A stretch of 64,000 nucleotides of DNA from Bacteriovoracaceae bacterium (GCA_016786485.1 JAEUWD010000001.1:1-64000); one strand, 5' to 3'; shown: positions 12,589 to 29,244, numbered from the stretch's first letter. The notes: generated from the letters alone by a model not told the origin. Numbers and translations: made by a program.

Positions 12589-12606
12589 AGTCGTAGTGTG
12601 CAAACC

Positions 12607-14484
12607 ATGATAAAAAAACTTTTCACACTTACCTATCTAGCTTTTATTTTATTTACTCATTTCGCTTTAGCGCAAAACAAAAATCCTGATTACGCTAAAC
12701 TTCTTTATTACACTCGCGAGTTAACAACCAGACCATCGGTCATGAAATTTCTAAATGAAACTTTCAAAGAAGAATTAGCGCAAATCCCAGAGGAAGCGGC
12801 TGAAAAATTTGATATTCCCAAAGAAGCTTTACGCCGAATTTCAGAAACTCAGTTTCTGGCCATTATCGAACGTCATCCTGAATTATACGAATTTATTGAT
12901 GAGTACTTAAAAAAAGTACCCGAATCGATTGAAGATGAAACCGCTCGAGACATTAAAATTCATGAGGCGTGGCAAGCCAAGTTTAATAAGATGGCAGATA
13001 TTGAGGAGCTCAAAACAAATCTTTTGAAATACGCCAACCCACTTGAACCTTATGTTTTTAAAGTCCCAAAAGGAAAACCTGGTTTTGAAGTTGTTGAAAT
13101 CTCTGCCAACCATGCTTTTCAGCACGAAGGCAAAATGATCGAAGCAGTGGCGATTGACGAAAAACTCGCGACCAGAATTAGAAAATGTAAACAATACGCT
13201 TTCAACGTTTTCGATTTTGATAATATGATTATTGCTGACGCTATTATCGAGGCCCATGAAAATGGTGCGAAGATTATGGGCGGGATCGATAAGAACGTTA
13301 TTGATTCTCGACCAGAGGTAAAAGCTGTTTACGATAAAGTGACTAAGGCCGGAATAAAAATCACGCCAGTTAACCCAACAAACTTAAATCATCAAAAGCA
13401 ACATGCTTTTGACTGGGATCATCCAGACCTCGCTGAGGCTTGGTATTTAAGTGCTAATAATACCTATTCGTGTATGCGTTCAACAGGTGATTTAACAGTA
13501 GAACAAGCAGAACAACTTTCAGCGGCTGAACTCAAATATGCCATTTCCAATGCCAATCACGTATTGGTACTAAAAGGTCAACTGCCAGCACTCGTGGCTT
13601 ATCACAATCTCAGTTTATCAATTTCAGAAAAATATCTCTTACGCGGAAAAGAATTTCCTCTTTCGAGTGCCTTCAGAATTATGGGAGAAAAAATCTCTGA
13701 CGACTATACGACTAGTCTCTACCTCGCTTTCACACCAGGCGGTGGTATGAAAAACATTAATCGAAATGTTTTTGGACAAATTATTCAAAATGGCACAGGT
13801 GACATTTATTTAGGCGTCTTCGTGGCTTCCTCTGACGATCTGTACGATGAAATTAAAAATGCCGTTATTGCTGACTACCTTCAAAAGAAAAAAGAACTCA
13901 CAAAAGTTTTCTTTGTCGGTGATACCTCTTTTGCGATGAGAGAATACAGTATCGCTCTTCCTCTTTCTGGACTTTACCGTGAAACTTATGAACATAAGAG
14001 CGGCGGCGAAGTTGAAAAATTAAATATCTATGTCGACGATCCGACCAATGAGTTAGTGCAGACACTAAGTGCAGAAGATATGGAAAAATTTCGTTCGATG
14101 ATTAAAATTGCGCCAGAAGTTTATGGTGAAACTCATATCACCCTACCGGATGGGACTTCAGCGAAACTTACTTCAAAAATCCATCACAAATTGATGGCAA
14201 GAGGCAATGTTTCAACTCCAGGGAACTCATTTAACCCAAGTGGTGCTGCTGATACCAATACGGAACAAGTTGTCGTTTTAAGTGATCCGAAAGAAACAGC
14301 AAAAGTAAAATCTATCATCATGAGTTTGTATAAAAGATCGGAAGGCACGGTTTATAACGAAATGAAAAAGCGTAATGCTCACGCCATTAAAGTTCTAGGC
14401 CAAGAAAAATTTGATAAAGTTGTTAAGAAAATTCAAGATAAGTTAAAAGCTGATTGCGACGCAAAACTAAAAATTAAAGCGTAA
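12607..14484 (+). CDS. Secreted phospholipase-D-superfamily protein with one perfect and one altered HKD motif
   Basis: The start is taken at ATG 12607 rather than GTG 12598 because it opens a signal peptide (MIKKLFTLTYLAFILF..ALA). The protein has 625 residues. Around residue 262 it carries HQKQHAFD, an exact H-x-K-x4-D motif of the phospholipase D superfamily, followed by SANNTYS, which resembles the usual GSxN motif. Near residue 526 there is a second HxK (HHKLMARG) in which the Asp position is Gly, followed by GNSFNPSGAADTNTEQ, a good match to the conserved segment after an HKD. The segment before the first motif (IIADAIIEAHENGAKIMG) also fits the fold. It probably acts on phosphodiesters outside the cytoplasm; the substrate cannot be told. 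Its last 11 bases overlap the tail of the convergent carbonic-anhydrase-like gene. Confidence 0.75.
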   Translation: MIKKLFTLTYLAFILFTHFALAQNKNPDYAKLLYYTRELTTRPSVMKFLNETFKEELAQIPEEAAEKFDIPKEALRRISETQFLAIIERHPELYEFIDEYLKKVPESIEDETARDIKIHEAWQAKFNKMADIEELKTNLLKYANPLEPYVFKVPKGKPGFEVVEISANHAFQHEGKMIEAVAIDEKLATRIRKCKQYAFNVFDFDNMIIADAIIEAHENGAKIMGGIDKNVIDSRPEVKAVYDKVTKAGIKITPVNPTNLNHQKQHAFDWDHPDLAEAWYLSANNTYSCMRSTGDLTVEQAEQLSAAELKYAISNANHVLVLKGQLPALVAYHNLSLSISEKYLLRGKEFPLSSAFRIMGEKISDDYTTSLYLAFTPGGGMKNINRNVFGQIIQNGTGDIYLGVFVASSDDLYDEIKNAVIADYLQKKKELTKVFFVGDTSFAMREYSIALPLSGLYRETYEHKSGGEVEKLNIYVDDPTNELVQTLSAEDMEKFRSMIKIAPEVYGETHITLPDGTSAKLTSKIHHKLMARGNVSTPGNSFNPSGAADTNTEQVVVLSDPKETAKVKSIIMSLYKRSEGTVYNEMKKRNAHAIKVLGQEKFDKVVKKIQDKLKADCDAKLKIKA

Positions 14485-15466: not shown

Positions 15467-15988
15467 TTATTCTCCTGGCGTTTCTACCACAAATTGATAG
15501 TCCGCAAAGCCACTAATCGCAGCTGTGTGCAAGAGATGCTTAAGCGTACCGAAAGGTAATTTATGATCGGCTTGAATCAGAAGTGTTGGAGGAGGCAATA
15601 AATCCACATTTTCATCCGCCACATCTTTGTAGAAATCTTTTTTCTTTTGATATTCCTGAACTAAAAATTCTTTGAGTGGTTTGATCGTGCGGCCATCTTC
15701 CATTAGATAACTAGCAGGAAAACGACCAGCATCTAGTTTCACCATGGTCTTCTCGTCGACTACCAGCATATCCTTACTTAAAGCAATTTTAATCGCTTCT
15801 TTTGGCTCTTCCTTCATTTCAGCAGTTGGTAGTTTCATGCCTTTGGGAGGCGTTAGTTCTAATGAACTGACCGTCGCACTTTTAATTAAAAAGAAAAGCA
15901 GTACGGTTAGAACGTCCATCAGTGACGTGATGTTAACGTCCGTTCCTGTCGATGTCATCTTTTTACTTTTCTTCTTTTTTAAGGCCAT
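15467..15988 (-). CDS. ExbD/TolR-type motor subunit (AglS/AglQ-like)
   Basis: This 173-residue protein has a Lys-rich cytoplasmic start, one membrane helix beginning VNITSLMDVLTVLLFFLI with the proton-carrying Asp of the ExbD/TolR family at residue 25, and a periplasmic domain. It is the last gene of a minus-strand operon and lies one base after a second ExbD-type gene and an ExbB-type gene. One ExbB/TolQ plus two ExbD/TolR proteins next to an FHA-TonB protein is the arrangement of the myxobacterial AglRQS gliding/sporulation motor. It should sit in the inner membrane and use the proton gradient. Assignment to AglS versus AglQ is not possible by eye. Confidence 0.85.
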   Translation of the reverse strand: MALKKKKSKKMTSTGTDVNITSLMDVLTVLLFFLIKSATVSSLELTPPKGMKLPTAEMKEEPKEAIKIALSKDMLVVDEKTMVKLDAGRFPASYLMEDGRTIKPLKEFLVQEYQKKKDFYKDVADENVDLLPPPTLLIQADHKLPFGTLKHLLHTAAISGFADYQFVVETPGE

Positions 15989-15989
15989 A

Positions 15990-16577
15990 TTACTTCTCCG
16001 CTAAAATAATTTCAGGAAATAAAACTCGGGTCTTCTCTTTCGTTCCGACTAAAGTCGTCAGCTCCATCGCCTCTTTCGCTTCCGCTAATTGCTTAAGCGC
16101 TTGAATCGAATAGATGACGGTCTGATATTCCACTTTATCCGTATAAGCAATGACTACCTTATTCTCATGCGGGAAAGCATGTTTAATACCTTTGACTGCA
16201 TCTTGAATGCGATCGAACAATTGCTTCGTATCTTTACCGTAAACCACTTTCGAGAAACCGCTGTCGCGACTACCTTGATATTGATTATTTAAGAAGCGTA
16301 ATAAATCTCTTTCGTTCACCATTTTTAATTCTGTTAATGGCCCAAGAAAGATTTCTGCTTTCTTATCATTTTCAATTTCAATTTTCAGCGCAAACAACTT
16401 TTTCTTATCATCCATCTCAGTACCCGACTTTTGCGAAGTTCCTTTCAAAATTGAAAGGTTCGAAAAAGTCATTACCATCAGGATGAAAAACAGTAGGGTC
16501 GTTAAGATATCCATCAACGATGTGATGTTGAGCTCGACCTCTGGTAATGGGTGTTTGTTCTTCTTTTTACGCAGCAT
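15990..16577 (-). CDS. ExbD/TolR-type motor subunit (second copy)
   Basis: This is a 195-residue ExbD/TolR protein: a basic N-terminus, the helix NITSLMDILTTLLFFILM with the conserved Asp at residue 23, then a periplasmic domain. Its start overlaps the end of the ExbB-type gene by 11 bases, which suggests translational coupling, and the next ExbD gene follows after one base. Having two different ExbD proteins per ExbB is characteristic of AglRQS-type motors rather than of ordinary ExbBD, where one ExbD is usual. The periplasmic domains of the two copies differ clearly, so they are not a recent duplication. Confidence 0.85.
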   Translation of the reverse strand: MLRKKKNKHPLPEVELNITSLMDILTTLLFFILMVMTFSNLSILKGTSQKSGTEMDDKKKLFALKIEIENDKKAEIFLGPLTELKMVNERDLLRFLNNQYQGSRDSGFSKVVYGKDTKQLFDRIQDAVKGIKHAFPHENKVVIAYTDKVEYQTVIYSIQALKQLAEAKEAMELTTLVGTKEKTRVLFPEIILAEK

Positions 16578-17295
16578 TCTTTTTATCCTCTATTTTGTTT
16601 TCTGACTTTTCATTGATCTTAGGTTGTTGCTGAGTTGAAACAACATTTTTCGAAGAAAAGTTTTCGAAGTAACCGCTACCAGTTCTTAAAAGAACTAATA
16701 GTCGTGCTGAGAAATGATCCACTTCGTCCACAATCATGTTAATTTTGTTGAATAAGTAACCATAAGTTAACATGCACGGAATCGCTACAATCAAACCAAA
16801 CGCTGTGGTGTTCATCGCAGTCGAGATACCCAGTGATAAGAGAACTTGTTTCTGAGAAGCTTCAACTGAACCTACCGCTTCAAACGTTGCCACCAGACCG
16901 ATGATGGTACCTAAAAGACCAATTAGTGTCGCTACGTTAGCAATCGTGTACAAGAACGAAACTCTCATTTGTAATTTTGGAATAACCTCTAAGTTCGCCA
17001 CTTCCACCTGATCTTGAATTTCATCAAATGGTCGGTCCGCATTCATCAGTGCTGCTTTAAACACCAGATAAATCGGTGCGTTCTTATTACTATTACAAAG
17101 TTTTAGCGCATCATCGATATTATTATCGATAATACACTTTTGAACTTGTTGAAAAAGTTTTGCTCCATCAGCATCATACTTAAACATGATGTAGTAAACT
17201 CGTTCAGCAATAACAATCGAGCCGAGAATGAACATGCCTAAAATTGGCCACATCCAAAAACCACCCGCTTGAAAGAAATTAATTAGAAACATCAT
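16567..17295 (-). CDS. MotA/TolQ/ExbB-type proton channel (AglR-like)
   Basis: This 242-residue protein has three membrane segments: FWMWPILGMFILGSIVIAE near the start, and two in the second half around TLIGLLGTIIGLVATF and AFGLIVAIPCML. The latter two are the ExbB/TolQ/MotA signature. The acidic, Lys-rich tail is cytoplasmic. It would form the proton-conducting ring around ExbD dimers at the inner membrane. It is followed by two ExbD genes and preceded, with a 16-base gap, by the FHA-TonB gene. The context argues for a dedicated envelope motor rather than for iron-siderophore uptake, since no TonB-dependent receptor is nearby. Confidence 0.88.
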   Translation of the reverse strand: MMFLINFFQAGGFWMWPILGMFILGSIVIAERVYYIMFKYDADGAKLFQQVQKCIIDNNIDDALKLCNSNKNAPIYLVFKAALMNADRPFDEIQDQVEVANLEVIPKLQMRVSFLYTIANVATLIGLLGTIIGLVATFEAVGSVEASQKQVLLSLGISTAMNTTAFGLIVAIPCMLTYGYLFNKINMIVDEVDHFSARLLVLLRTGSGYFENFSSKNVVSTQQQPKINEKSENKIEDKKNAA

Positions 17296-17311
17296 AGATT
17301 ACCCCTTGGTA

Positions 17312-19075
17312 CTATTTTGCGTTATTACTCATTAAGATAAATGGATAATTGACCCCAACAGTGCCTCCACCTTTTGGTTTCGGAAATTTCCAGTCTTTAA
17401 CTTTATCGACAATACATGCTTCAGTCGGACTATCTTTTAAAGTTGATTCTGTAATCTTAGGAACAGCGACAGCACCTTCAGCAGTAATAGTGAAAGCGAT
17501 GGCGACTTTACCTTTAATATAAGGCTTTGCTACTAGTTGTTGTTCATAACAATATTGAATCTGTGGTAAATAACGTTTGATGATTTTTGCGATAACTTCT
17601 GGATCTAAACCACCCACAATTTCAATTTCTTCTTCATCTGGAATTCTGATCTCAGTACCTTTTGAAGGATTTAAACCATAGTCGCCGGCCCCCATACCAC
17701 CACCGATACCTTGGCCTTTAAGAGCTCCGATCCCTACTGATTCACCACCACCACCTGAGCCTAAACCTTTATTTCCACGAGCAAATCCGCCATCAGCAAT
17801 CGCTGAGGCTGAGTTACCGTCGGCCTTAGTGTTCGAAAGAATAGCGTCTGTATTTGAAACAGCACTTGGGGCAGCTTTCGCAAAAGCATTATCCAAGTTT
17901 ACCATTTCAATTTTCTTTTCAGCGGTATTGGTTTGCGCCACAGCTTTTGATTTTGCTTCAGCTGCTTCCGCTTGTTCGGTTGGTTTTTTAGCATCTGCCT
18001 TTTCTAGCGCTTTTTCTTTATCTGATTTTTTCGCACTAGACTTACCTTCTTCAGCGCGGGCACGACCACCTTGATTTTGAGCAATCTGTCCAATTGCTGA
18101 TTGTTGTTTCTCTTTAGCCGATTTAATACCCACATCATAAACCACCTTTTTCAAGTGCTTTGGAATATCTTCAATCTTTTTTTCTTTTTGTTCAGCTTCA
18201 GGAATAGATAAAACAAGAACTAAAAGAACATAGAAAGCTAGTAACCCTCCGATAATTTTCGATAACTGCTTATCAAATTTCGGAAGAATGCTGCCTTTGA
18301 TTTTTTTAGCAGGATTAATAAATCTGAAAGTAATAATCAACTCACCAAATTCAATATGAGCTCTATCACCCATACGTAAATTCAATTGGAAGAAATCTTT
18401 CCCTACGAAGTTCTTGTTATAAAGTCTTAAGGTATCAAGGTTAATAACATCACCACCGTTCCAAATCAAACCATTGGCAAGTTTGGGAACGGTTAAAGTC
18501 AATTGTCCTTTGGCATAGTTAGCAAGTTCAAATTTTTGTTCTTTAATTGCACTGTCTGGCAATAACTCTTCTGGAATACCAAAAGTTGCTAAGCGAGGGT
18601 TACCAATACTAATATGTGAGCCCTGAGAAAATTGTTGGACTTCAAGAATTTTCTCGCCCCAGAAAAGTGAAACTTCCAGAACTGTTTTTTCACTGGATAA
18701 AATCAGTTCTTGTTCACTCGCAACAGTGGTTTTCTTGACATCATATTTTGGAAATTTTGATAACTCTGTTTCATCTAATTCTTTGAAGTAAAGCTGGTGT
18801 TCACCAATTTTAAAAACTTCATCATTTTTAATTTTGATCTCTGTAATCGGCTTGTCATTAAAATAGGTTCCGAATGAACTACCCAAATCGATAACTTTGA
18901 TTCCATCGGCTTCATTTTTAATCAGCGCATGGATTCCACTGCATCGCCAGTCATTGATTTTAATATCAACGCCATCAGATGTTCCAAGATACTGCTCCCC
19001 AGAAATTTCTTCCAGGAAGAATGTCTTTTCTTCATCTCGATACATTTCTTTTAGAAGTAGTGCTGTTTTTTTCAT
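17312..19075 (-). CDS. FHA-domain, TonB-like transenvelope protein (GltG/AgmX-like)
   Basis: This 587-residue protein has an N-terminal FHA domain (about residues 25-98) with the phosphothreonine-binding landmarks R44, S46, H49 and GSSFGTYFND. A second beta-rich region follows (about 130-255). There is one membrane helix (about 272-292), an Ala/Lys-rich then Gly-rich periplasmic linker (about 295-480), and a C-terminal TonB-like domain (about 493-582; RYLPQIQYCYEQQL, GKVAIAFTI, WKFPKP). This is the AgmX/PglI/GltG architecture known from myxobacterial gliding, where a cytoplasmic FHA domain is linked through the inner membrane to a TonB arm driven by the AglRQS motor. It overlaps the upstream small gene by one base and precedes the ExbB-type gene. 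Confidence 0.85.
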   Translation of the reverse strand: MKKTALLLKEMYRDEEKTFFLEEISGEQYLGTSDGVDIKINDWRCSGIHALIKNEADGIKVIDLGSSFGTYFNDKPITEIKIKNDEVFKIGEHQLYFKELDETELSKFPKYDVKKTTVASEQELILSSEKTVLEVSLFWGEKILEVQQFSQGSHISIGNPRLATFGIPEELLPDSAIKEQKFELANYAKGQLTLTVPKLANGLIWNGGDVINLDTLRLYNKNFVGKDFFQLNLRMGDRAHIEFGELIITFRFINPAKKIKGSILPKFDKQLSKIIGGLLAFYVLLVLVLSIPEAEQKEKKIEDIPKHLKKVVYDVGIKSAKEKQQSAIGQIAQNQGGRARAEEGKSSAKKSDKEKALEKADAKKPTEQAEAAEAKSKAVAQTNTAEKKIEMVNLDNAFAKAAPSAVSNTDAILSNTKADGNSASAIADGGFARGNKGLGSGGGGESVGIGALKGQGIGGGMGAGDYGLNPSKGTEIRIPDEEEIEIVGGLDPEVIAKIIKRYLPQIQYCYEQQLVAKPYIKGKVAIAFTITAEGAVAVPKITESTLKDSPTEACIVDKVKDWKFPKPKGGGTVGVNYPFILMSNNAK

Positions 19076-19356
19076 TATTCTAAAGCTTCCTTCACAATGT
19101 GCTTAATCTCAGCGTCATGAAAACCTAATGTTTTAGGCACTAATGAAACTTGGTGGCCAAGTGAACGTTTACGTTGAAAGATGTAAAAGACAGATGGTGC
19201 TTTTACTTTCCCTTCGATCTTCTCACCCGTAAAATCTAATTGAGTATGACTTTTATATTTTATTTTGACGTTCTTCTTTGCCCCAGAATTAACTGGGTTT
19301 TGTGCCAAAGCGCTGGTCGCTAAAAATAGAAATGTCATCAACATCAAGTTTCTCAT
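19075..19356 (-). CDS. Small exported protein, CglF-like
   Basis: This 93-residue protein has a signal peptide (MRNLMLMTFLFLATSALAQ). The mature part has the pattern LDFTGEKIEGKVKAP, then an Arg/Lys doublet (FQRKRSLGHQ) and a C-terminal helix. From memory of the family, this order (acidic FxxxxIEG, then a hydrophobic strand, RKR, and a C-terminal E-rich helix) resembles the short periplasmic CglF proteins linked to adventurous gliding in myxobacteria, but I could not align it. It sits between the OmpL47-type gene (two-base gap) and the FHA-TonB gene (one-base overlap), so it is surely part of the same complex or pathway. Confidence 0.5.
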   Translation of the reverse strand: MRNLMLMTFLFLATSALAQNPVNSGAKKNVKIKYKSHTQLDFTGEKIEGKVKAPSVFYIFQRKRSLGHQVSLVPKTLGFHDAEIKHIVKEALE

Positions 19357-19358
19357 GC

Positions 19359-20972
19359 TTATCTCTTCTTATTTCTTAACTGTTTTTTAGCAGCTGGTTG
19401 TTTCGCAGCAGGCTTAGCTTCTGTTTCAACAGATGCTGGCATACGAGTCTGAACTTCTTCTGCGGCTTCATTATTTTTAACTTGGGATAATGGTAAATTT
19501 CCAAGTTCGTTGGTTTCAACAAACAGACCAACACTTGGGCCTTTATCTTTAATAGCTATTCGCATCTTCTTAGGCATTTCGATATTACCTAACTGATCAA
19601 CAGCGCGGTAATAGATGGTTCTTTCTTTTTCCTGCCAAGTTGCTAAATCGATTGAACCATTAAGTTTGGTGTAGTTACGGCCATCATAACTTAATTCGAT
19701 ATGCTTAAGGCCTACACCTTCATCACGGCCTGTGATATTGATCACGTTTGGAATTGAAGTGAAGAAAACTTCGTTTCTCATCACCATAGAAACACTTGAA
19801 TCAAATGATGAAGTCGGTGGTGTTTGATCAATGACAACAGAATAAGTTTTCGGGTTCGCTTTATTTCCAACATTATCAATCGCAGAGAAGGTCACTTCAT
19901 AGTTTCCTTCTTCATTGAAACTCATCATGTGACCTTGATTACTAAGTGGAACTTCTTTGGCGTTCACTAAAAAGTTTTTCAGACCACTGTCTTTATCAGC
20001 CGCTGAAGCCGTTAACTTTAATCCCATGGTGGCAAAAATTTTACCACTCACTTGATGAAAATTACCTTGTTTATCCACATTCAAATCTGGAGCTTCTGTA
20101 TCCAAATGAACGGTAAATTCTTTCCAGCCTTCTTGATTACCAACACGATCGACACCTCTAAAAAGAAGTTTCGAAAGTTTTTTATCAATAGCGAACTTAT
20201 CTTCATATTTTGAAGAAAGTGAATTGTTGATTCGGTATTCGATTTCCTTAACACCAGAGCCTTCATCTTCTGATTCTAATTGAATCAAAGCGCCCAGATT
20301 TGTGTAGATCTTATCTTTCACTTGAAAAACATCTCCACTTAACTTAGCTTGAGTTTTAGGCGTCGAAGTATCAACGGTAAATTGATAAGGCACCCATTCT
20401 TCCTTATTACCTACATTATCGATTGATGCGTAATTAATTTTATAAACACCAGGACTCGAGAAATTTTTCTTTGCCGTGTAGACTTGAACTTTGTCATCAC
20501 TTGCTTTCATTAAGGTTTTTGAAATCCCAGACAAATTGTCTGATCCTGAAATAACCAGTTGAGCGTTTGGTCCAACATAAGTCATCTCATTATTCTGATA
20601 ATATTCACCGAACCAGCTCACTTGTGATCTTGGTTTGGTTAAGTCTACATAGATACGAAAGCTTTGCACTGGTGACCAGTTATTAACAGGGTCCACCGCT
20701 TTAAATCTTAAGAGATGTAAACCTTCTTGCTTAAACTGTAATTGGGACGAATATAATTTAAAGTCTTCATCGTTAAGACTATATTCAATCCGATCTAAAA
20801 AATCGGTACCGCTTAAAGAGCGAATGGAAAACATGGGTTTATCATTAACAAAATACTGCCCAGAAGCTGAGTCATAGAAAACACCTGAGTATTCCAGTTT
20901 CTGCGACTGAGCCTGTGCTAAAGAAGAAGTTAAAAAGCCTATCACAGCGAAAACATTTAAAAACTTCATCAT
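19359..20972 (-). CDS. Exported OmpL47-type beta-repeat protein
   Basis: This 537-residue protein has a signal peptide (MMKFLNVFAVIGFLTSSLAQA) and about five Ig-like repeats of roughly 80-90 residues. The repeats have the recurring signature of OmpL47-type domains: S..D..SG...I.YS, G.Y.....A.D..GN.E, and VD...P.T. The C-terminal 50 residues are Ala/Lys-rich and disordered. It is the first gene of the minus operon that continues with the CglF-like, FHA-TonB, ExbB and ExbD genes, and it probably acts in the periplasm or at the outer-membrane inner face as a partner of the TonB arm. No family name can be given with certainty. Confidence 0.75.
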   Translation of the reverse strand: MMKFLNVFAVIGFLTSSLAQAQSQKLEYSGVFYDSASGQYFVNDKPMFSIRSLSGTDFLDRIEYSLNDEDFKLYSSQLQFKQEGLHLLRFKAVDPVNNWSPVQSFRIYVDLTKPRSQVSWFGEYYQNNEMTYVGPNAQLVISGSDNLSGISKTLMKASDDKVQVYTAKKNFSSPGVYKINYASIDNVGNKEEWVPYQFTVDTSTPKTQAKLSGDVFQVKDKIYTNLGALIQLESEDEGSGVKEIEYRINNSLSSKYEDKFAIDKKLSKLLFRGVDRVGNQEGWKEFTVHLDTEAPDLNVDKQGNFHQVSGKIFATMGLKLTASAADKDSGLKNFLVNAKEVPLSNQGHMMSFNEEGNYEVTFSAIDNVGNKANPKTYSVVIDQTPPTSSFDSSVSMVMRNEVFFTSIPNVINITGRDEGVGLKHIELSYDGRNYTKLNGSIDLATWQEKERTIYYRAVDQLGNIEMPKKMRIAIKDKGPSVGLFVETNELGNLPLSQVKNNEAAEEVQTRMPASVETEAKPAAKQPAAKKQLRNKKR

Positions 20973-21173
20973 AAATAATCTCCTAGTGGCTTAATTGATT
21001 TGAACACTCAATTTTACAAAATTTCGGTTCAAGTCTCTACTGCCACAATAAATGGACACATTACCGTATCGGCAGGTTTCAGGTTAAACTTGAGCAAAAG
21101 ATTCAACAAAAAAGGTTAATGTAATACCCGATAGTTACCGACTAGAAGTTAGGAAAGACTAAGAGGTTTTAAC

Positions 21174-21824
21174 ATGCAAAAAGAATGGGAATGGTATCTA
21201 CCAAACAATGATGGCATCGAGCCACATGGCCCTTTCACGCAAGAGCAGATTTTAGCGAAACTTGAGGCCCGCGAATTAGGCCTTGATTCGTTTATTTGGG
21301 GCGTGCATTTTGCCCAAGATATGTGGATGCGAATTTTTGAACTAAAAGAGTTCGAGTCTTTACTAAAAATTTACCCGAAAGTGGCCACACCAAAACGACG
21401 TAGTCGTGGTTTATCGAGTACTAAAACCAAGAGTTTTGATTATAAACAAAAAACAGGCGAATACGGTGAACAGAATGAATACCGCCGTTTCCCTCGTGCC
21501 CCTATGATGTGTGAGATTATCACTCATAATCAGCAAAGATTAACCAAAAGTATGACCGTTGATATTAGTGAGAAAGGCGTTTCGATCAAAACTGAAGACA
21601 ACACGATGTTTAAGTCTGGTGAAGTCGTAACAATTACTTTAATTGATTCTCCTTTTTTAGGTACATTCTCTGTGAATGCTACCGTCATGAGAGTTTTAGA
21701 TAAACCGTTTCGTGGATACGGTCTCTATTTCTTAATGATTAGCCCTCAATTAAAAAGAAAAATCGCCAAATATGTTATTGAGACTCTAGGTCTAGAATCT
21801 GAGAAAAATAATGAAGCTGCATGA
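21174..21824 (+). CDS. GYF-PilZ fusion, likely c-di-GMP sensor
   Basis: This 216-residue cytoplasmic protein has an N-terminal GYF_2-type domain (about residues 5-65; WYLPNNDGIEPHGPFTQEQI, then SFIWGVHFAQDMWMRIFEL). A basic linker follows, then a PilZ domain (about 102-205) with both c-di-GMP-binding motifs intact: RRFPR (RxxxR, residues 104-108) and DISEKG (D/NxSxxG, residues 130-135). GYF domains bind proline-rich peptides and occur in the myxobacterial motility protein GltJ. The gene is divergent from the OmpL47/FHA-TonB/motor operon and overlaps the TPR gene by four bases (ATGA), so c-di-GMP control of this machine is a reasonable inference. Confidence 0.85.
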   Translation: MQKEWEWYLPNNDGIEPHGPFTQEQILAKLEARELGLDSFIWGVHFAQDMWMRIFELKEFESLLKIYPKVATPKRRSRGLSSTKTKSFDYKQKTGEYGEQNEYRRFPRAPMMCEIITHNQQRLTKSMTVDISEKGVSIKTEDNTMFKSGEVVTITLIDSPFLGTFSVNATVMRVLDKPFRGYGLYFLMISPQLKRKIAKYVIETLGLESEKNNEAA

Positions 21825-24800
21825 TTAAACATTTATTTGTTTCGACATTACTATTTGCAGTTTTAGGCGCCTTTAGCGCCTTTGGTGTTTCTTTTGACCT
21901 AAATTTGAATATCGATGTGCAACTACAAAAACGATTTCAGCGCCCTGATCGCAATCATCCCGACTACCCAGCTTACTTACTTATTTCTCATTTAACATCG
22001 AAGACATTTCAATCACCCAGTGAACGAATTGCATTCTTTGAACAGATGTTATCTGACAAACAATTTAAGCTTCTTGTCGAAGGCAAAAACGATAATCAGT
22101 ATGAAATGAAAGTTGGCGCTCAAGGTTCATTCTCACTTTGGCGCGATTTACTCTATTTAATGTTAGGTCGTGCGTATTACGAAGACCAGCAAATGCATCC
22201 TTCGATTAAGTACTTTAATGCTATACAAAGTTATTCACCATTTTATCCGATTGCTGTCCTTCATAGTAACTATGCTCATTTTTATTTAAATGAATTTGAG
22301 CAAGCGATGAAAAAACTGCAAAGCTTAAGAGATTTTAATTTTAAAATGCCCCATTTAAAAGACGAGCTTGCCTTACAAGAAGGTTTTTTGCTGATACGGA
22401 ATGAAAAATATTTTGATGCGCTTAAAAAAGTGGAAAATCTTAAATTTGCTCGAGATGAGGTGGCGGCTTTCCGACATAAAGTTTATACCGAAGCTTATTT
22501 TCAATATTACTTACAGATATATATCAAGCTAAGTTTTGAAGAAAAAATTGAGCATCTGCAAAAAATTACCAAAACGGTTGAGCTCATTCAGCCTCAGCAT
22601 CGTGATGGTAACGTGGCCTACTTAGCTGCAGAAACTTACTGGCATTTGGCAGTTGCTTATCGTATCCAAGATCCTGTGAAGCATGAAAAATTTTGGAAAC
22701 AACAATTGCATATTGCAGATGGATGGATTTCACCTTACGTAACAAAATCGATTAAAGAACAAAAAGCTTATTTAAGCGAAGAAGCCTTCTTCTTTTCAAT
22801 TTCACTTTTGTGGGAGCGCCAAGCAGAAACAGAAGCGCTGGATCGCTTAAACGCTTTACCAGAAATTTATCCTCAAGGGATTTATCGCGAAGATGCTTAT
22901 CAACTTTTAGGTGATTATTATTTTGAAAGACAAAAATTTAAGCAGGCCACTCACTACTATCGCAAACTGGCCGATATTGGAGTAGAAAATAAAGCAGCTT
23001 ACGGTGTGTATAAAGCCGCGTGGAGCTTTTACAACGACAAAGATAAGTGGAAGGCCCTTCGTCACTTCGAACGCCTTTTTGAACATTACGCTAAATTACC
23101 AATCGAAGTTCGAGCTGAAAAAAGCGAACTCGCCAAAGAATCGAAACAAGATTTAATCCTTGTCATGAGCGAAATTTTATCGGCCGATGCGGCCCTTAAA
23201 GAATTAAACATTTTTCCTATTTCGGAAACTGAAAAAATTGATATGAGTCATGACCTAGGACTCTCTTACCAAAAAATCGGAACCTTCGAAAACTCGATGA
23301 CGGTTTGGAGAACCTTAATGAATCGCCACTTAGGTGATGACAAGGCGCTGGTTTGGTTAGGTAACTTATTAAAGGACTACCAAAGTATTGGGAAAAGAAC
23401 AGAAATCTCAACTGCGATGAAAGAATATTATCCGAAGTGGAAAAAACTTTATCAGAATCCTGCACGGGAAGATGAGCTCTTTGATGAATGGACCAAGATA
23501 ATTCTTTATCTCCATAAGGAAGCTAAGAAAACTGATGATGCTCGTTATTGGCAAGCAGTTGACTTGGCCTATGATACCTATGAAGAAATTAATCCGAATG
23601 GAAAAAACCCTGATGTTTGGTTTTATGGGGCCCAAAAATTTGAGCAAAAAAGAAATATTTGGAAGGCCATTGAGTGGTACGAAAAGGCTTCACTCTTTAA
23701 AGACTTTAAGCAAGCCGACGACTCTGCTTTAAGTGTTTTAACTTTGGTTAACAGCGAAAACGATGAATTAAGTATTATGGGAAATAAGGAAAAACAGAAA
23801 GAGATCTATCTAAAAGTCGTGAAACACTCAAAATGGTTTATTGATCATGCTCCCTCGACCCTTGATAAACAAAAAGAACTCGCGCGTATGATTTACGTGG
23901 AAGCTAATCACTTTTTAGCGCTTCACGAGGATAATAAAAAATACTTTGAAGAACTCTTTGCTAACAGCAAATGGGATGAAAGCTTCTGGACTTTATACGC
24001 AACAGAAAATCAAAGATTTTATACTGAAAAAAAATGGATGATGGCGCACGAGTTGGCCGATTTCATGTGGGAATTACGTAAACCACTTTCCCCTGAGCAA
24101 AAAACTATTCTCAATAATTTAAGACAAGAAACAGCTTTCCAAGTTGCCTATACCGAAGAACAAAAGAAACAAGATATCGATCGCGCACTGGCACGTAAGT
24201 GGTATCAGGAAGCTTTAACCGTTAAGAATGCTGATCGCTTCATTCGTTTGAAGTCATGGCACAACTTCTTACTCACTTTTAAAGTGGAAGAACTGGCCTT
24301 ATTTGAAGAAGAATTACTCAACTTTAAAGATGAATGGAAAGAAATTAAGAGTGAAGATGAGAAAAAACTTAATTACAATATTTATACTCATGCCATTCTC
24401 AATTTCGAACAAGCTAAACACTATTATAAAAAATCACTCTACTTGCCTATCGCTGCTGATTACACCAACGACAGCGCACTGAAAGAAAATATGAACTGGG
24501 ACGCGTTCTTATTGAGCGCTAACTATCATCAGTGGGAACGTTTTGATGAACTCTATAGTATCTTAAAAGCTGATAACAGTCCTTTCTTAAAGGAAGAACG
24601 AAATCTACTTTTTATTACCAAAATGTATTTGCACCGTCAGAAATATGAAATGGCATGGGAAATGATTAAAGAGTATTTTTTAAAGGCCCCTCCAACAACA
24701 TTATGGCCAACCTTTAAGGACTTAATTACTTTTGCTGACGAAGATATCAAAGAACAGATGTATGCTTATTTGAAAGCAAACGAAGCTGAATTAAAGAGCA

Positions 24801-25588
24801 ATGAGCTTTTAAAACCAGTATGGTCGAAAGTTTATCAAGTCGATCACTTTAGTAAACTGGAAGATATTCTAGACAGTGATTTTGAAAGACAACCTGCGGC
24901 CATTGAAGAAAACGATGCGGACATCGTGATTGAACTTAAAAAGAAGTTGGCCGTTATCAATAATAGTATTAATGAAATGAACGACAAAAAACTAAAACTC
25001 AAAGAAACGATTCAAGCTTGGTTACCGCAGCTTAGTCGTGAAACGCTTTGTAGCTATATGCCGATTACTCAGAAAACCTATGATGAAATTGCTGAGTTAA
25101 AAGCAGATCCGATTGAGACACCTCAATGGCCAGAATTCGTTACTCGTATTGATCAAACCTTAGGCGATATTCAAAAAAGTTTAGACCAAGAAAAACATGA
25201 CTGCCAAAAGTTAACAAAAGAACTGGTTTTCTTTGATTCACTCAAAGCAGAGCCGAATTTATTCTGTGCTGATACTGATTGTTTATTCGATAAAGGTTTA
25301 AGCGATAGTGATATTATTGGACTTGAAAAGGAATGGTTTGCACAAAATAAAACGGATGAACTTGAAAAGTTTATGTTCTTCCTAAAGGCAGGTGCTATCG
25401 TTTATGCCGAGTACCTCGCAGCTTTTGAAAAAGATAAAGACAAACAAATTTATATGTACGGAATACTGCGTTTTGCAATGAGCGATAACTGGAACGGAGT
25501 TTTAGTCATGAAGTCACTCGAGTCTTCAAGACCATTTATGACCTTGGCACGTAATTATCAAACTGATATCGTGAACCTCAAACAGTAA
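21821..25588 (+). CDS. Very large exported TPR protein
   Basis: This 1,255-residue protein has a signal peptide (about residues 1-23, LLFAVLGAFSAFGVS). It is almost wholly alpha-helical, with TPR-like helix pairs such as YYFERQKFKQATHYYRKLAD and AIEWYEKASLF. The last 250 residues contain a coiled-coil-like stretch and a few cysteines. Its start overlaps the GYF-PilZ gene by four bases, so translation is coupled. Long periplasmic TPR proteins (GltE/GltI class) are scaffold parts of the myxobacterial gliding complex. The similarity here is architectural; I cannot show homology by eye. Confidence 0.75.
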   Translation: MIKHLFVSTLLFAVLGAFSAFGVSFDLNLNIDVQLQKRFQRPDRNHPDYPAYLLISHLTSKTFQSPSERIAFFEQMLSDKQFKLLVEGKNDNQYEMKVGAQGSFSLWRDLLYLMLGRAYYEDQQMHPSIKYFNAIQSYSPFYPIAVLHSNYAHFYLNEFEQAMKKLQSLRDFNFKMPHLKDELALQEGFLLIRNEKYFDALKKVENLKFARDEVAAFRHKVYTEAYFQYYLQIYIKLSFEEKIEHLQKITKTVELIQPQHRDGNVAYLAAETYWHLAVAYRIQDPVKHEKFWKQQLHIADGWISPYVTKSIKEQKAYLSEEAFFFSISLLWERQAETEALDRLNALPEIYPQGIYREDAYQLLGDYYFERQKFKQATHYYRKLADIGVENKAAYGVYKAAWSFYNDKDKWKALRHFERLFEHYAKLPIEVRAEKSELAKESKQDLILVMSEILSADAALKELNIFPISETEKIDMSHDLGLSYQKIGTFENSMTVWRTLMNRHLGDDKALVWLGNLLKDYQSIGKRTEISTAMKEYYPKWKKLYQNPAREDELFDEWTKIILYLHKEAKKTDDARYWQAVDLAYDTYEEINPNGKNPDVWFYGAQKFEQKRNIWKAIEWYEKASLFKDFKQADDSALSVLTLVNSENDELSIMGNKEKQKEIYLKVVKHSKWFIDHAPSTLDKQKELARMIYVEANHFLALHEDNKKYFEELFANSKWDESFWTLYATENQRFYTEKKWMMAHELADFMWELRKPLSPEQKTILNNLRQETAFQVAYTEEQKKQDIDRALARKWYQEALTVKNADRFIRLKSWHNFLLTFKVEELALFEEELLNFKDEWKEIKSEDEKKLNYNIYTHAILNFEQAKHYYKKSLYLPIAADYTNDSALKENMNWDAFLLSANYHQWERFDELYSILKADNSPFLKEERNLLFITKMYLHRQKYEMAWEMIKEYFLKAPPTTLWPTFKDLITFADEDIKEQMYAYLKANEAELKSNELLKPVWSKVYQVDHFSKLEDILDSDFERQPAAIEENDADIVIELKKKLAVINNSINEMNDKKLKLKETIQAWLPQLSRETLCSYMPITQKTYDEIAELKADPIETPQWPEFVTRIDQTLGDIQKSLDQEKHDCQKLTKELVFFDSLKAEPNLFCADTDCLFDKGLSDSDIIGLEKEWFAQNKTDELEKFMFFLKAGAIVYAEYLAAFEKDKDKQIYMYGILRFAMSDNWNGVLVMKSLESSRPFMTLARNYQTDIVNLKQ

Positions 25589-25596
25589 GAAAAACC

Positions 25597-26211
25597 ATGA
25601 TGTTGCAATTATCAAAATTACCGCCTGCGCGTAAGAAAAAATTTTTGAAAGACTTATCCTATCTCAATACCAAAGAGTACCTAAGCCTTTGCAAAAAATA
25701 TGAGATTCCTTTTGATATTTATTATATTAGTGAATCAGGTGCGCTGAAGAAAACAAAGTTACGTGATCGTAAGGCCATTGTCTTAAAGCGTCTTCGTACT
25801 TACCTGATGCAAGGTAAGATTGCCAAACCAACAGTCTTTAATCAGGACGTGGTGAATTTAAAACTTAAGATCCTTCACCCCACCAAAAAACATCACCTGC
25901 ATTTTGGTCAATACGATAAAAAGAATTCAGAAATGAATAAGCTTTTAAAAAGTCTCACCAAAGGTCACTTCAAGGATGGCGCTCTGGCGCGTGAAATTTT
26001 ATGTGAATTCTGGAGTCGTGGTTATGCTCCGACTTTTAGTGAGTTTGCTAAGGTTTGGTTAACCGCCTACGAAGCCGAAAAAAAGAATCCCCATCCTGAA
26101 TGGGCGTATCTGTATGATAAAAAACAGAAAGTAAGTTTGAAACAGTGGAAAAAGAAACGCCAACAGATCGCTAAAAACGTGCTTTCAACCTTTCACATTA
26201 TATCGACATAA
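25597..26211 (+). CDS. Conserved-looking cytoplasmic protein of unknown function
   Basis: This 204-residue, very basic, helical protein has no signal peptide or membrane segment. It lies eight bases after the TPR gene, so it is almost certainly the third gene of the GYF-PilZ operon. The sequence has several Trp/Tyr-rich segments (FWSRGYAPTFSEFAKVW, EWAYLYDKK) and a Lys-rich tail. I recognise no domain. Its position suggests a role in making or regulating the envelope machine. The start could be either of two consecutive Met codons. Confidence 0.6.
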   Translation: MMLQLSKLPPARKKKFLKDLSYLNTKEYLSLCKKYEIPFDIYYISESGALKKTKLRDRKAIVLKRLRTYLMQGKIAKPTVFNQDVVNLKLKILHPTKKHHLHFGQYDKKNSEMNKLLKSLTKGHFKDGALAREILCEFWSRGYAPTFSEFAKVWLTAYEAEKKNPHPEWAYLYDKKQKVSLKQWKKKRQQIAKNVLSTFHIIST

Positions 26212-26336: not shown

Positions 26337-26735
26337 ATGAAAAAAGGATTACAACTGTCTATTTTTTTGACGACTTTGTTTATTGGTCAGGCACAAGCAC
26401 AAAGCTTTAACAATTTTAACAACTTTAACAATAACAATGGATTTAACAATGGTTGCTACACCGGTTATGAAGCGGCTTGTATGTATTCCAACAACTTTGG
26501 CAATATGATGTCGATGCCAAATAGTGCACGCAGTTTTTCATGGGGTGGAACGATGCCGTTAAATTATTACGGTCAACGTAATATGTATAACAATCGTTAC
26601 AATGACCCACGTTTTAACGGCGGAAGATTTAACAACGGATGGAATAATAACAACGGATGGAACAATAATAATTGGAATAACAACAATTTTTATAACAATC
26701 GGAACAATCCATTTTTTAACGGAAGACCGTACTAG
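26337..26735 (+). CDS. Asn/Phe-rich exported protein
   Basis: This 132-residue protein has a signal peptide (MKKGLQLSIFLTTLFIGQAQA). The mature part is dominated by Asn, with Phe, Tyr and Trp spaced every few residues (FNNFNNFNNNNGFNNG; NNGWNNNNGWNNNN). There is one pair of cysteines (GCYTGYEAAC). Such low-complexity Asn/aromatic sequences are expected to be flexible and may self-assemble. It is the first of three similar small exported proteins read from the sigma-54 promoter. Function is unknown; a surface or secreted structural role is an inference from composition only. Confidence 0.7.
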   Translation: MKKGLQLSIFLTTLFIGQAQAQSFNNFNNFNNNNGFNNGCYTGYEAACMYSNNFGNMMSMPNSARSFSWGGTMPLNYYGQRNMYNNRYNDPRFNGGRFNNGWNNNNGWNNNNWNNNNFYNNRNNPFFNGRPY

Positions 26736-26760
26736 TTAGAATTAAACTCGGGGGAGTTGT

Positions 26761-27309
26761 ATGAAAAAGTTAATTTTAGTTTTTAGCATGTTGTGTTCAA
26801 TGAGTGTCATGGCGCAAACCTTCAGCTTCGGCGACGGTCCAGCGGACATGGTGATGACCGGAACAACACCTAAATATTATGTTTGTACTTCAATGACAAC
26901 GACAAGTGGTTGTAACGAAGTAGCCACACGCCCGATGGATCCAACCTGCCAGTTTATTTATCCGCAAGCAGCTCATGGTGAGCAAGAATTCTCACAATAT
27001 TTTTTCTGTCCAGCAACTTCATCAGCTAATCCTAAATGTAAATATGGTTTCGAAGTAGCTTGTGGTGACGGCAGATACCAGTGGGCGATGAACCCATGGT
27101 ACCGTACACAAGTATCACAGTTCCCAGGTAATATGTGGGGACAACCTCCCATGATGTATCCTTGGATGATGAATGGTAACTACGGTTACAATCCATATAT
27201 GAATAATAACTACCGTCAACCATCACCAATGCCGTTTGGTGGTACAGGCTCAACGACAACAACTGGTGGAACAACCACTGGCGGTCCGGCGTTTAGCTTT
27301 GGAACTTAA
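26761..27309 (+). CDS. Cys-containing exported protein with Met/Tyr/Asn-rich tail
   Basis: This 182-residue protein has a signal peptide (MKKLILVFSMLCSMSVMAQ). A globular middle contains six cysteines (YVCTS, SGCNE, PTCQF, FFCPA, PKCKYGFEVAC), and the tail is rich in Met, Pro, Tyr and Asn, then Gly/Thr (GGTGSTTTTGGTTTGG). The GYEAAC/GFEVAC element recurs in the preceding protein, so the two share a motif. It lies 25 bases after the Asn/Phe-rich gene, with ribosome site GGGGGAG, in the same operon. No known family was recognised. Confidence 0.7.
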   Translation: MKKLILVFSMLCSMSVMAQTFSFGDGPADMVMTGTTPKYYVCTSMTTTSGCNEVATRPMDPTCQFIYPQAAHGEQEFSQYFFCPATSSANPKCKYGFEVACGDGRYQWAMNPWYRTQVSQFPGNMWGQPPMMYPWMMNGNYGYNPYMNNNYRQPSPMPFGGTGSTTTTGGTTTGGPAFSFGT

Positions 27310-27321
27310 CAAGGAAGATTT

Positions 27322-27837
27322 ATGAAGAAACTATTTTTCATAACATTCTTTATCGCAAACACCGCACTAGCTTACTTCCCCGTTGGTGAATGTTTTAATG
27401 CTCAAATGAATTTTGGTTTCGGTAATAATATGGGATTTGGAACTAATGGTTTCGGTGGTGGTAACGGTTGTTGCGGTGGAAGTGGTTTTGGTTTGAGTGG
27501 TAATGCCAGTTCACTCATGGTCCCAACAGGTTATAGTTTTAATAATCCTTACGCTTACTATAATGGCTTTGGTGGTAATCCGATGATGATGAGTATGTAT
27601 GGAAATAGTCCTTATATGAATCCAATGGCCGGAGCTGGTGTACGTGTTGGTCTTAACATGGGCCCGATTGCTCCAATGTTAATGCAATTAATGACTGGTG
27701 GAATTTATGTGGGCGCAGGTCTTGGCGCTGGTTATGGATACGGTTCTGGCGTTTATAATGGTGGCCGTATGGGTCCGATGCCAATGAATTATGGCAATAT
27801 GAACCAACCATACATGAACAATTCATTCAGGTATTAA
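27322..27837 (+). CDS. Gly/Asn/Met-rich exported protein
   Basis: This 171-residue protein has a signal peptide (MKKLFFITFFIANTALA) and a Gly-rich mature part with many Phe, Asn, Tyr and Met residues (FGNNMGFGTNGFGGGNG). A CC pair lies near residue 50. It is the third gene of the small exported-protein operon, 12 bases after the previous one, with ribosome site AAGGAAG. No family was recognised. Composition suggests a flexible structural or self-associating surface protein. Confidence 0.7.
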   Translation: MKKLFFITFFIANTALAYFPVGECFNAQMNFGFGNNMGFGTNGFGGGNGCCGGSGFGLSGNASSLMVPTGYSFNNPYAYYNGFGGNPMMMSMYGNSPYMNPMAGAGVRVGLNMGPIAPMLMQLMTGGIYVGAGLGAGYGYGSGVYNGGRMGPMPMNYGNMNQPYMNNSFRY

Positions 27838-27897: not shown

Positions 27898-29244
27898 ATG
27901 AATATGAAATTGAAAATCATCCTTTTTATTATTTGTTTTTCGCAACTCTCATGTAAGCAAATGGGACCGCAAAATCTCGAAGAGCTTCAGCAAACTGGTG
28001 AGATCGTTGTTCTTACTCGTAACTCTCCTACTACCTATTACGAAGATAAGGACGGACAAATGGCCGGACTTGAATATGAACTGGCCCGTTCATTCGGCGC
28101 TTATCTAGGTGTTAAGGTTCGCTTTAAAACCATTACCAATTTGCAAGAGATGCTACAGTTTCTTGCTAATGGCGAAGGGGATTTCGCAGCTGCTGGCTTA
28201 GCGATTACCGATTCACGTTCACAACGTTTTCTTTTTGGACCTGCTTATCAAACAGTGCAACAACAAGTGGTTTGTCATAAGGACTTACCAATTAAAGAAA
28301 TGGCCGATTTGGCCAAAGTTAAAACAGTTGTCGTTAAAGGTAGCTCTTATGAAGAAAATATTAAAGACGTGATGGATAAGGCCAATATTAAAATGAATGT
28401 GGTTCCTTCATTTGATATGTTCTCTGAGGAATTACTGAAAAACGTGGAAGATGGTTCAGTGGAATGTACCGTGGCCGATAACCATATTATCAATCTACAC
28501 CGCCGATTTTTTGAAAATATCAGAGTGAAATTTGACCTTGGAAAATCTCAATCTTTAGCTTGGGCCCTTCCAAAGAGTAAAAAATATCTACAAACTGAAA
28601 TGCGTAATTGGTTTGTACGAGTTGAAAAATCAGGTGAATTACATGCTCTTTTAGATAAGTACTACACTTATGCTGATGACTTCGATCTGTACGATACGAA
28701 AGTCTTCTTAACTCGAATGAAATCACGCCTACCAAAGTTCCAAGAGTTATTTAAGGAAGCTGGTGAGCGATATAAAATTGATTGGAAATTAATTGCAGCT
28801 GTTAGTTATCAAGAATCACACTGGAATCCTTGGGCCCAAAGTCATACAGGTGTAAAAGGTCTGATGATGTTAACCAATAATACTGCTAAGCAATTGGGTG
28901 TTGTTAACAGAGTTGATCCACTTGAGAGTATTGATGGTGGTGCTCGCTATTTAAAAATGGTTATCGATCGTATTCCCGCCCACGTCCAAGCGCCAGATAG
29001 GTTGTGGATGGCACTGGCCAGTTATAACGTAGGTTATCTGCATTTACGTGATGCTTGTATGCTCACTGTTTGGATGGATAAGAACGCCCAAATCTGGTCT
29101 GACGTAAAAACGCACTTACCTTTCCTAGCGAATAAAAAGTACCATTATCGCCTTCCCCACGGCTATGCTCGTGGTTGGGAGCCTGTCGCCTATGTTCAAC
29201 GTATACGCAATTATTACGACTTATTAGCAGAGCACGTGGATTAA
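27898..29244 (+). CDS. mltF: Membrane-bound lytic transglycosylase F-like lipoprotein
   Basis: This 448-residue protein begins with a lipoprotein signal (IICFSQLSC, lipidation at Cys20). A periplasmic solute-binding (SBP_bac_3) domain follows (about residues 30-265), then an SLT/lysozyme-like domain (about 280-435). The SLT domain has the expected catalytic Glu in AAVSYQESHWNP and the following TGVKGLMMLT and ASYNVGYLH motifs. This is the MltF architecture, in which the SBP-like domain regulates peptidoglycan cleavage. It cuts the glycan strand with 1,6-anhydro product formation at the periplasmic face. It lies 60 bases after the Gly-rich gene and may share the sigma-54 transcript. Confidence 0.9.
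   Translation: MNMKLKIILFIICFSQLSCKQMGPQNLEELQQTGEIVVLTRNSPTTYYEDKDGQMAGLEYELARSFGAYLGVKVRFKTITNLQEMLQFLANGEGDFAAAGLAITDSRSQRFLFGPAYQTVQQQVVCHKDLPIKEMADLAKVKTVVVKGSSYEENIKDVMDKANIKMNVVPSFDMFSEELLKNVEDGSVECTVADNHIINLHRRFFENIRVKFDLGKSQSLAWALPKSKKYLQTEMRNWFVRVEKSGELHALLDKYYTYADDFDLYDTKVFLTRMKSRLPKFQELFKEAGERYKIDWKLIAAVSYQESHWNPWAQSHTGVKGLMMLTNNTAKQLGVVNRVDPLESIDGGARYLKMVIDRIPAHVQAPDRLWMALASYNVGYLHLRDACMLTVWMDKNAQIWSDVKTHLPFLANKKYHYRLPHGYARGWEPVAYVQRIRNYYDLLAEHVD

Follow-up and report, generated by a model that had tools for sequence, protein, structure and literature searches.

A GYF-PilZ protein encoded with an Agl/Glt-type envelope motor in a Bacteriovoracaceae bacterium: a candidate c-di-GMP-responsive adaptor

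We describe here a gene cluster of a predator-related bacterium of the Bacteriovoracaceae in which a protein with a GYF and a PilZ domain (GYF-PilZ) is encoded together with components of an Agl/Glt-type envelope motor. The cluster lies in a stretch of 64,000 nucleotides (GCA_016786485.1, JAEUWD010000001.1:1-64000), which we call the window and in which all coordinates are given; genes were taken from an open reading frame (ORF) listing and families from Pfam and NCBIfam profile scans. Between 15467 and 25588 the genes form two divergent operons, one on the minus strand from 20972 to 15467 and one on the plus strand from 21174, separated by 201 bp (20973-21173). The plus-strand operon opens with the gene for GYF-PilZ (216 residues, 21174-21824), and the start codon of a giant GltD-like TPR protein (1255 residues, 21821-25588) overlaps its stop codon, so that the two genes share four bases. 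The minus-strand operon encodes an OmpL47-type repeat (Ig-like) protein (537 residues, 19359-20972), a small CglF/GltF-like protein (93 residues, 19075-19356), a GltG-type force transducer (17312-19075), an ExbB/TolQ-type proton channel subunit (16567-17295) and two ExbD-type subunits (15990-16577 and 15467-15988). Every gene named in an earlier sequence-only reading was located, and its description of two ExbD, one ExbB, FHA-TonB, CglF-like, OmpL47-type and giant TPR proteins in two divergent operons agrees with both the coordinates and the profile scans. No Rfam family matched anywhere in the window, the divergent promoter region included, and a sigma-70 scan of the 201-bp region gave no more matches than expected by chance.

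GYF-PilZ consists of a GYF domain (approximately residues 6-63), a disordered linker (66-102) and a PilZ domain (approximately 104-215), with no transmembrane segment. The PilZ domain scores 49.5 bits in Pfam (cut-off 22.5) and the GYF domain 21.6 bits with GYF_2, under the cut-off of 25.8. This sub-threshold call is rescued by a family profile, built from 25 relatives and searched against all solved structures in the PDB, whose best match is the GYF domain of Myxococcus xanthus GltJ/AgmX (7z3c, E 1.4e-10), and by the agreement of the predicted fold. The second match of the profile is the PilZ domain of PA0012, solved with cyclic di-GMP (c-di-GMP) (8u0i, E 6.8e-7), with YcgR matching more weakly. 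The AlphaFold model (predicted local distance difference test score, pLDDT, 79.5; predicted template modelling score, pTM, 0.53) contains two confident domains joined by the low-confidence linker; in Foldseek searches the PilZ half matched c-di-GMP complexes of Alg44, PA0012 and YcgR, and also MotI, and the GYF half matched Smy2 (3fma) and the GltJ GYF domain (7z3c) at a probability of 1.00 but an E value of approximately 0.05. On this profile and fold evidence, the GYF domain of the window protein is homologous to that of GltJ. Both PilZ ligand motifs, RxxxR and (D/N)x(S/T)xxG, are present, as RRFPR (104-108) and DISEKG (130-135), and R104, R108, D130, S132 and G135 are invariant in all eight close orthologues, the most distant of which is approximately 33% identical to the window protein (34 of 216 residues are invariant overall; P 7e-5). 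The sequence-only reading was therefore right about the intact ligand motifs, and its picture of a GYF domain that is part of a transenvelope protein in myxobacteria and here sits on a soluble, PilZ-fused protein is supported by the fusion itself, the absence of a transmembrane segment and the homology to the GltJ domain. The fusion is not, however, a peculiarity of this cluster, being common in the phylum and mostly found elsewhere.

The partner genes can be assigned with varying precision. The GltG-type protein has a cytoplasmic FHA domain (44 bits), one transmembrane segment (274-292), a periplasmic linker and a TonB-like C-terminus of the AgmX/PglI type (NF033768, 106 bits, cut-off 40). 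It matches the GltG model NF033760 at E 3e-68, and its 231 bits fall below the curated cut-off of 650; the small protein likewise scores 28 bits with the CglF model NF033764 (cut-off 90), and 'GltG-type' and 'GltF/CglF-like' are therefore the right wording. The names CglF and GltF refer to a single protein (PMC4488436); the gene occupies an equal position in relatives, and its profile matches the gltF-position gene of Hyalangium. No curated GltD model matched the TPR protein, but a profile of its family matches the gltD-position proteins of two myxobacteria (E 2e-21 and 2e-24), one of them at the gltD position of a gltD-E-F-G cluster. The TPR protein is probably periplasmic, judging from its N-terminal signal-like segment. 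The OmpL47-type protein (NF047446, 213.5 bits, cut-off 40), ExbB (PF01618, 88 bits) and the two ExbD subunits (PF02472, 35 bits for the upstream and 50 bits for the downstream gene) complete the set.

The same unit recurs across the phylum. In a survey of 369 genomes, accompanied by 14 control genomes, close relatives of GYF-PilZ occur in 8 and the OmpL47-type gene in 12, these including all 8 (Fisher p 6e-14, a value inflated by shared ancestry). In each of the eight the TPR gene comes immediately after GYF-PilZ, and this holds for G158 too, although its two operons are unlinked. The divergent layout with an intact OmpL47-GltF-GltG-ExbB-ExbD-ExbD operon is found in the window's own genome (G000), G270, G312 and G313; it can be traced in G026 up to GltG, where the contig stops, and in G126 and G087 contig ends break it up. 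Carriers of the unit are spread patchily over families f1, f2, f19 and f21. Of the 369 phylum genomes, 351 contain GYF_2 matches, which the controls lack altogether, and the GYF-PilZ relatives scanned have one or two GYF domains ahead of PilZ. Eleven low-contig genomes contain 37 GYF genes, of which 7 are found no more than 10 kb from a GltG-type tail where 0.75 would be expected (P ~5e-6, with genes treated as independent), and the association of GYF genes with glt clusters is real but partial. Other glt-type clusters, too, have a GYF-PilZ gene next to them, namely in G044, G038, G087, G313 and a genome that we take to be that of Bdellovibrio bacteriovorus HD100, its Bd1482-Bd1481-Bd1480 numbering being assigned by gene order. 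In a single case, G223 (L247 6573-8186, G223:C59), the layout is kept although the PilZ domain is degenerate, and an HD_5 gene stands between the two operons; this gene is HD-GYP-like, with an HHERPDGMGFP signature, and matches a NosR-type phosphodiesterase model below cut-off (E 8e-8). The window's own genome encodes four GGDEF proteins and an MglA that is 70% identical to Myxococcus MglA, and a signalling background therefore exists. It also holds a second Agl/Glt-type set (L025 14435-18242, G000:C60) of ExbB, two ExbD and a 682-residue FHA GltG-type protein, which has no GYF-PilZ neighbour on the piece read.

The affiliation of the motor was addressed with two ExbB trees, the first of 39 sequences, and with approximately unbiased (AU) tests of constrained groupings. 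In both trees the window ExbB falls within a 20-member Agl/Glt clade (support 100/98 and 100/100), apart from E. coli TolQ, E. coli ExbB and the genome's own Tol-like ExbB. A grouping with the TolQ-type sequences is rejected (AU p = 7e-8); the sequence-only reading had named a grouping with Tol-Pal or siderophore systems as the outcome that would overturn it. Inside the clade the window ExbB joins a Myxococcus paralogue from a set of 260, 173 and 193 residues beside topA (support 96/86 and 88/87 in the two trees, respectively) and, in a wider group, the HD100 ExbB that stands beside GYF-PilZ (100/98 and 100/99). Orthology with AglR is also rejected, a grouping of the window group with AglR having an AU p of 0.0012. 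We assigned AglRQS to the Myxococcus set with an ExbB of 245 and an ExbD of 162 residues, and M2 to the 260/173/193 set, by length and exclusion and not by name; the 245/162-residue set agrees in length with AglR and AglQ as published (PMC3169522). By phylogeny, then, the window ExbB is of Agl/Glt type and belongs to the M2/Bd1481 branch.

Comparison with known systems sharpens this picture. The Myxococcus M2 motor (MXAN_3003-3005 type) supplies the closest Myxococcus ExbB to that of the window, and in Myxococcus sp. CA023 the M2-type ExbB-ExbD-ExbD set lies beside topA, and the 7 kb that follow it yielded no glt-type gene. The AglRQS-Glt machine shares with the window homologues of ExbB, both ExbDs, GltG, GltF and GltD, but its AglR falls in a different sub-clade. 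Myxobacterial GltJ, unlike GYF-PilZ, is a membrane protein with a zinc finger, a GYF domain and a TonB-like tail. The nearest counterpart is the Bd1482 operon of HD100, which runs GYF-PilZ, ExbB, ExbD, ExbD, TPR, CglF-like, GltG-type and whose ExbB lies in the shared sub-clade. It differs in being a single operon in which GYF-PilZ adjoins ExbB, in lacking an OmpL47-type gene, in carrying GltC-like, beta-barrel and MIDAS-adhesin-like genes, and in having SVSENG as its second PilZ motif where the window has D-x-S-x-x-G. The MIDAS-adhesin/CglD-like gene at this locus (L071 15758-16819; a weak match, below cut-off) adjoins GYF-PilZ, and a similar gene stands beside GYF-PilZ in L037. Finally, the flagellar stator regulators YcgR and MotI match the PilZ fold and offer the analogy of a PilZ protein acting on a motor of the ExbB/MotA superfamily, YcgR being known to act on MotA (PMC10140304). 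YcgR has a YcgR-N domain in place of the N-terminal GYF domain, however, and the target of the window protein can only be proposed. In M. xanthus, too, PilZ proteins influence gliding, though through different routes (PixB, PMC8316039).

Based upon these observations, we favour, with moderate confidence, a model in which GYF-PilZ is a c-di-GMP-responsive adaptor or brake on the co-encoded motor. The ExbB/ExbD/ExbD proton channel would drive the GltG-type FHA-transmembrane-TonB transducer, which in turn would act on periplasmic and outer-envelope partners, namely the GltD-like TPR, GltF-like and OmpL47-type proteins. The PilZ domain may bind c-di-GMP through RRFPR and DISEKG, and binding would shift the docking of the GYF domain on a cytoplasmic face of the machine; the c-di-GMP level would thereby gate motor assembly or output in the manner of YcgR-type PilZ proteins on MotA. 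Because the TPR protein is probably periplasmic, GltG, ExbB or ExbD are likelier contacts of GYF-PilZ, and both ExbB and GltG are among the neighbours of GYF-PilZ genes in other clusters. What the analysis shows is the gene content, the homology, the conserved linkage and co-inheritance, the conserved PilZ ligand residues and the predicted fold. The sequence-only reading proposed that c-di-GMP is coupled directly to motor assembly; this coupling, the binding and the docking are matters of inference, as are the way in which the effect runs and the process at the cell surface that the motor would serve, be it movement, adhesion or contact with prey.

Several observations weigh against this model. 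In the low-contig genomes 30 of the 37 GYF genes, and thus most of them, are over 10 kb away from glt genes. No counterparts of GltA, GltB, GltC, GltE, GltH, GltI, GltJ or GltK were recognised in the cluster; GltC and GltE may lie elsewhere in the genome, which was not searched for them. PilZ motifs alone are no proof of c-di-GMP binding, and the ligand motif is degenerate in the glt-linked copies of HD100 (Bd1482), G313b, G113 and G175 and lost in those of G223 and G075; nucleotide binding is therefore not universal. As for a GYF ligand, the GltG-type protein contains no PP and no ORF of the window contains a PPG-hydrophobic motif, and the proline-rich partner peptide that had been suggested for the FHA-TonB linker, looked for in the window and in relatives, is absent from the window's own protein. 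Deletion of the M2 aglQ homologue (MXAN_3004) leaves M. xanthus motility intact (PMC3169522), and it therefore does not follow that the window motor serves gliding. The earlier reading is supported in so far as this is an Agl/Glt-type motor cluster, but the rejection of the AglR grouping and the placement in the M2/Bd1481 branch leave the 'gliding/spore-coat machine' label not established for this cluster.

Three other explanations have to be set beside the adaptor model. GYF-PilZ might be mainly a constitutive assembly scaffold, supplying in trans the GYF domain that GltJ carries in cis, with a structural or vestigial PilZ domain and a secondary role for c-di-GMP. The retention of the GYF domain in the very copies whose PilZ motif is degenerate or lost fits this, as do the zinc finger, GYF domain and TonB-like tail of myxobacterial GltJ and the fact that no GltJ is reported in Bdellovibrio (PMC3169522), but the invariance of the five canonical ligand residues across all eight orthologues argues for retained binding in the window lineage, and we consider a mainly scaffolding role rather unlikely here. 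Alternatively, GYF-PilZ could work for the TPR protein, help to regulate or secrete the envelope complex, or take part in another surface process, and owe its place in the cluster to co-regulation, with no motor contact. Its tightest genetic link is indeed to the overlapping TPR gene, and many GYF proteins are encoded far from any glt gene; the probable periplasmic location of the TPR protein, on the other hand, would preclude its contact with a cytoplasmic GYF-PilZ, and the gene is found directly upstream of ExbB in HD100 (one gene away in G313b) and directly downstream of GltG in G044, G038 and G087, such that its neighbours change while the machine stays. We regard this explanation as improbable. 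It is scarcely credible that these genes make up an energy system of the Tol-Pal or siderophore (TonB) kind together with accessory genes: ExbB, ExbD and a TonB-like C-terminus are common to all such systems, but the TolQ-type grouping is rejected, the genome has its own Tol-like ExbB elsewhere, and GltG, GltF and GltD-like partners are present together with two ExbDs.

Proline-rich stretches do occur in other clusters. The GltG-type protein of the Bd0828-type set of HD100 (L072 4600-6723) has one in its cytoplasmic part, in a cluster with no GYF-PilZ, and this could act as a ligand in trans for GYF proteins. The GltG-adjacent GYF-GYF-PilZ proteins of L033, L034, L080 and L081 have a proline-rich stretch between the two GYF domains, possibly an internal ligand. 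Around the window cluster itself, the next gene downstream (25597-26211, 204 residues) is probably outside the system, since it matches no family convincingly and the related clusters examined have no equivalent of it. It is followed by three consecutive short proteins that seem to be secreted and have a high content of Asn, Gly, Met and Tyr (26337-27837) and, a few genes downstream of the cluster, by an MltF-like protein with SBP_bac_3 and SLT transglycosylase domains (27898-29244); on the other side lies a 628-residue protein with a PLD-like domain (12598-14484, 27.8 bits).

Four sets of core-complex genes and no GltJ have been described in Bdellovibrio (Luciano 2011, PMC3169522), and the PilZ gene Bd1482, the 5'-most gene of one glt operon, has been raised as a possible link between c-di-GMP and gliding (Hobley 2012, PMC3271064); bd1480 (aglQ) of the same locus is upregulated on surfaces (Lowry 2022, PMC9140294). 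The PilZ link is thus not new for Bd1482; as far as the literature searched shows, what is added here is the GYF domain, the recurrence across the phylum and the finding that some copies have an intact site and others a degenerate one. Our search found no paper linking GYF and PilZ with gliding or Bdellovibrio. A broader generalisation, tentative and on balance doubtful, is that Bdellovibrionota provide in trans, on a family of GYF-PilZ adaptors, the cytoplasmic GYF module that in myxobacteria is built into GltJ. Several of these adaptors would belong to particular Agl/Glt-type motors, and through them c-di-GMP or cyclic GMP-AMP (cGAMP) might directly gate the assembly of ExbB-class motors, with the nucleotide site kept or lost by lineage. 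The gliding machinery of Bdellovibrio has been described as unidentified (PMC13104615), and its gliding depends on a cyclic-dinucleotide synthase (PMC9140294). GYF-PilZ, which recurs in loci for Agl/Glt-type motors and has its GYF domain in common with GltJ, is a concrete and testable candidate for a receptor, and sequence comparison predicts which copies would respond: those with an intact site should do so, and the degenerate Bd1482 of HD100 may not.

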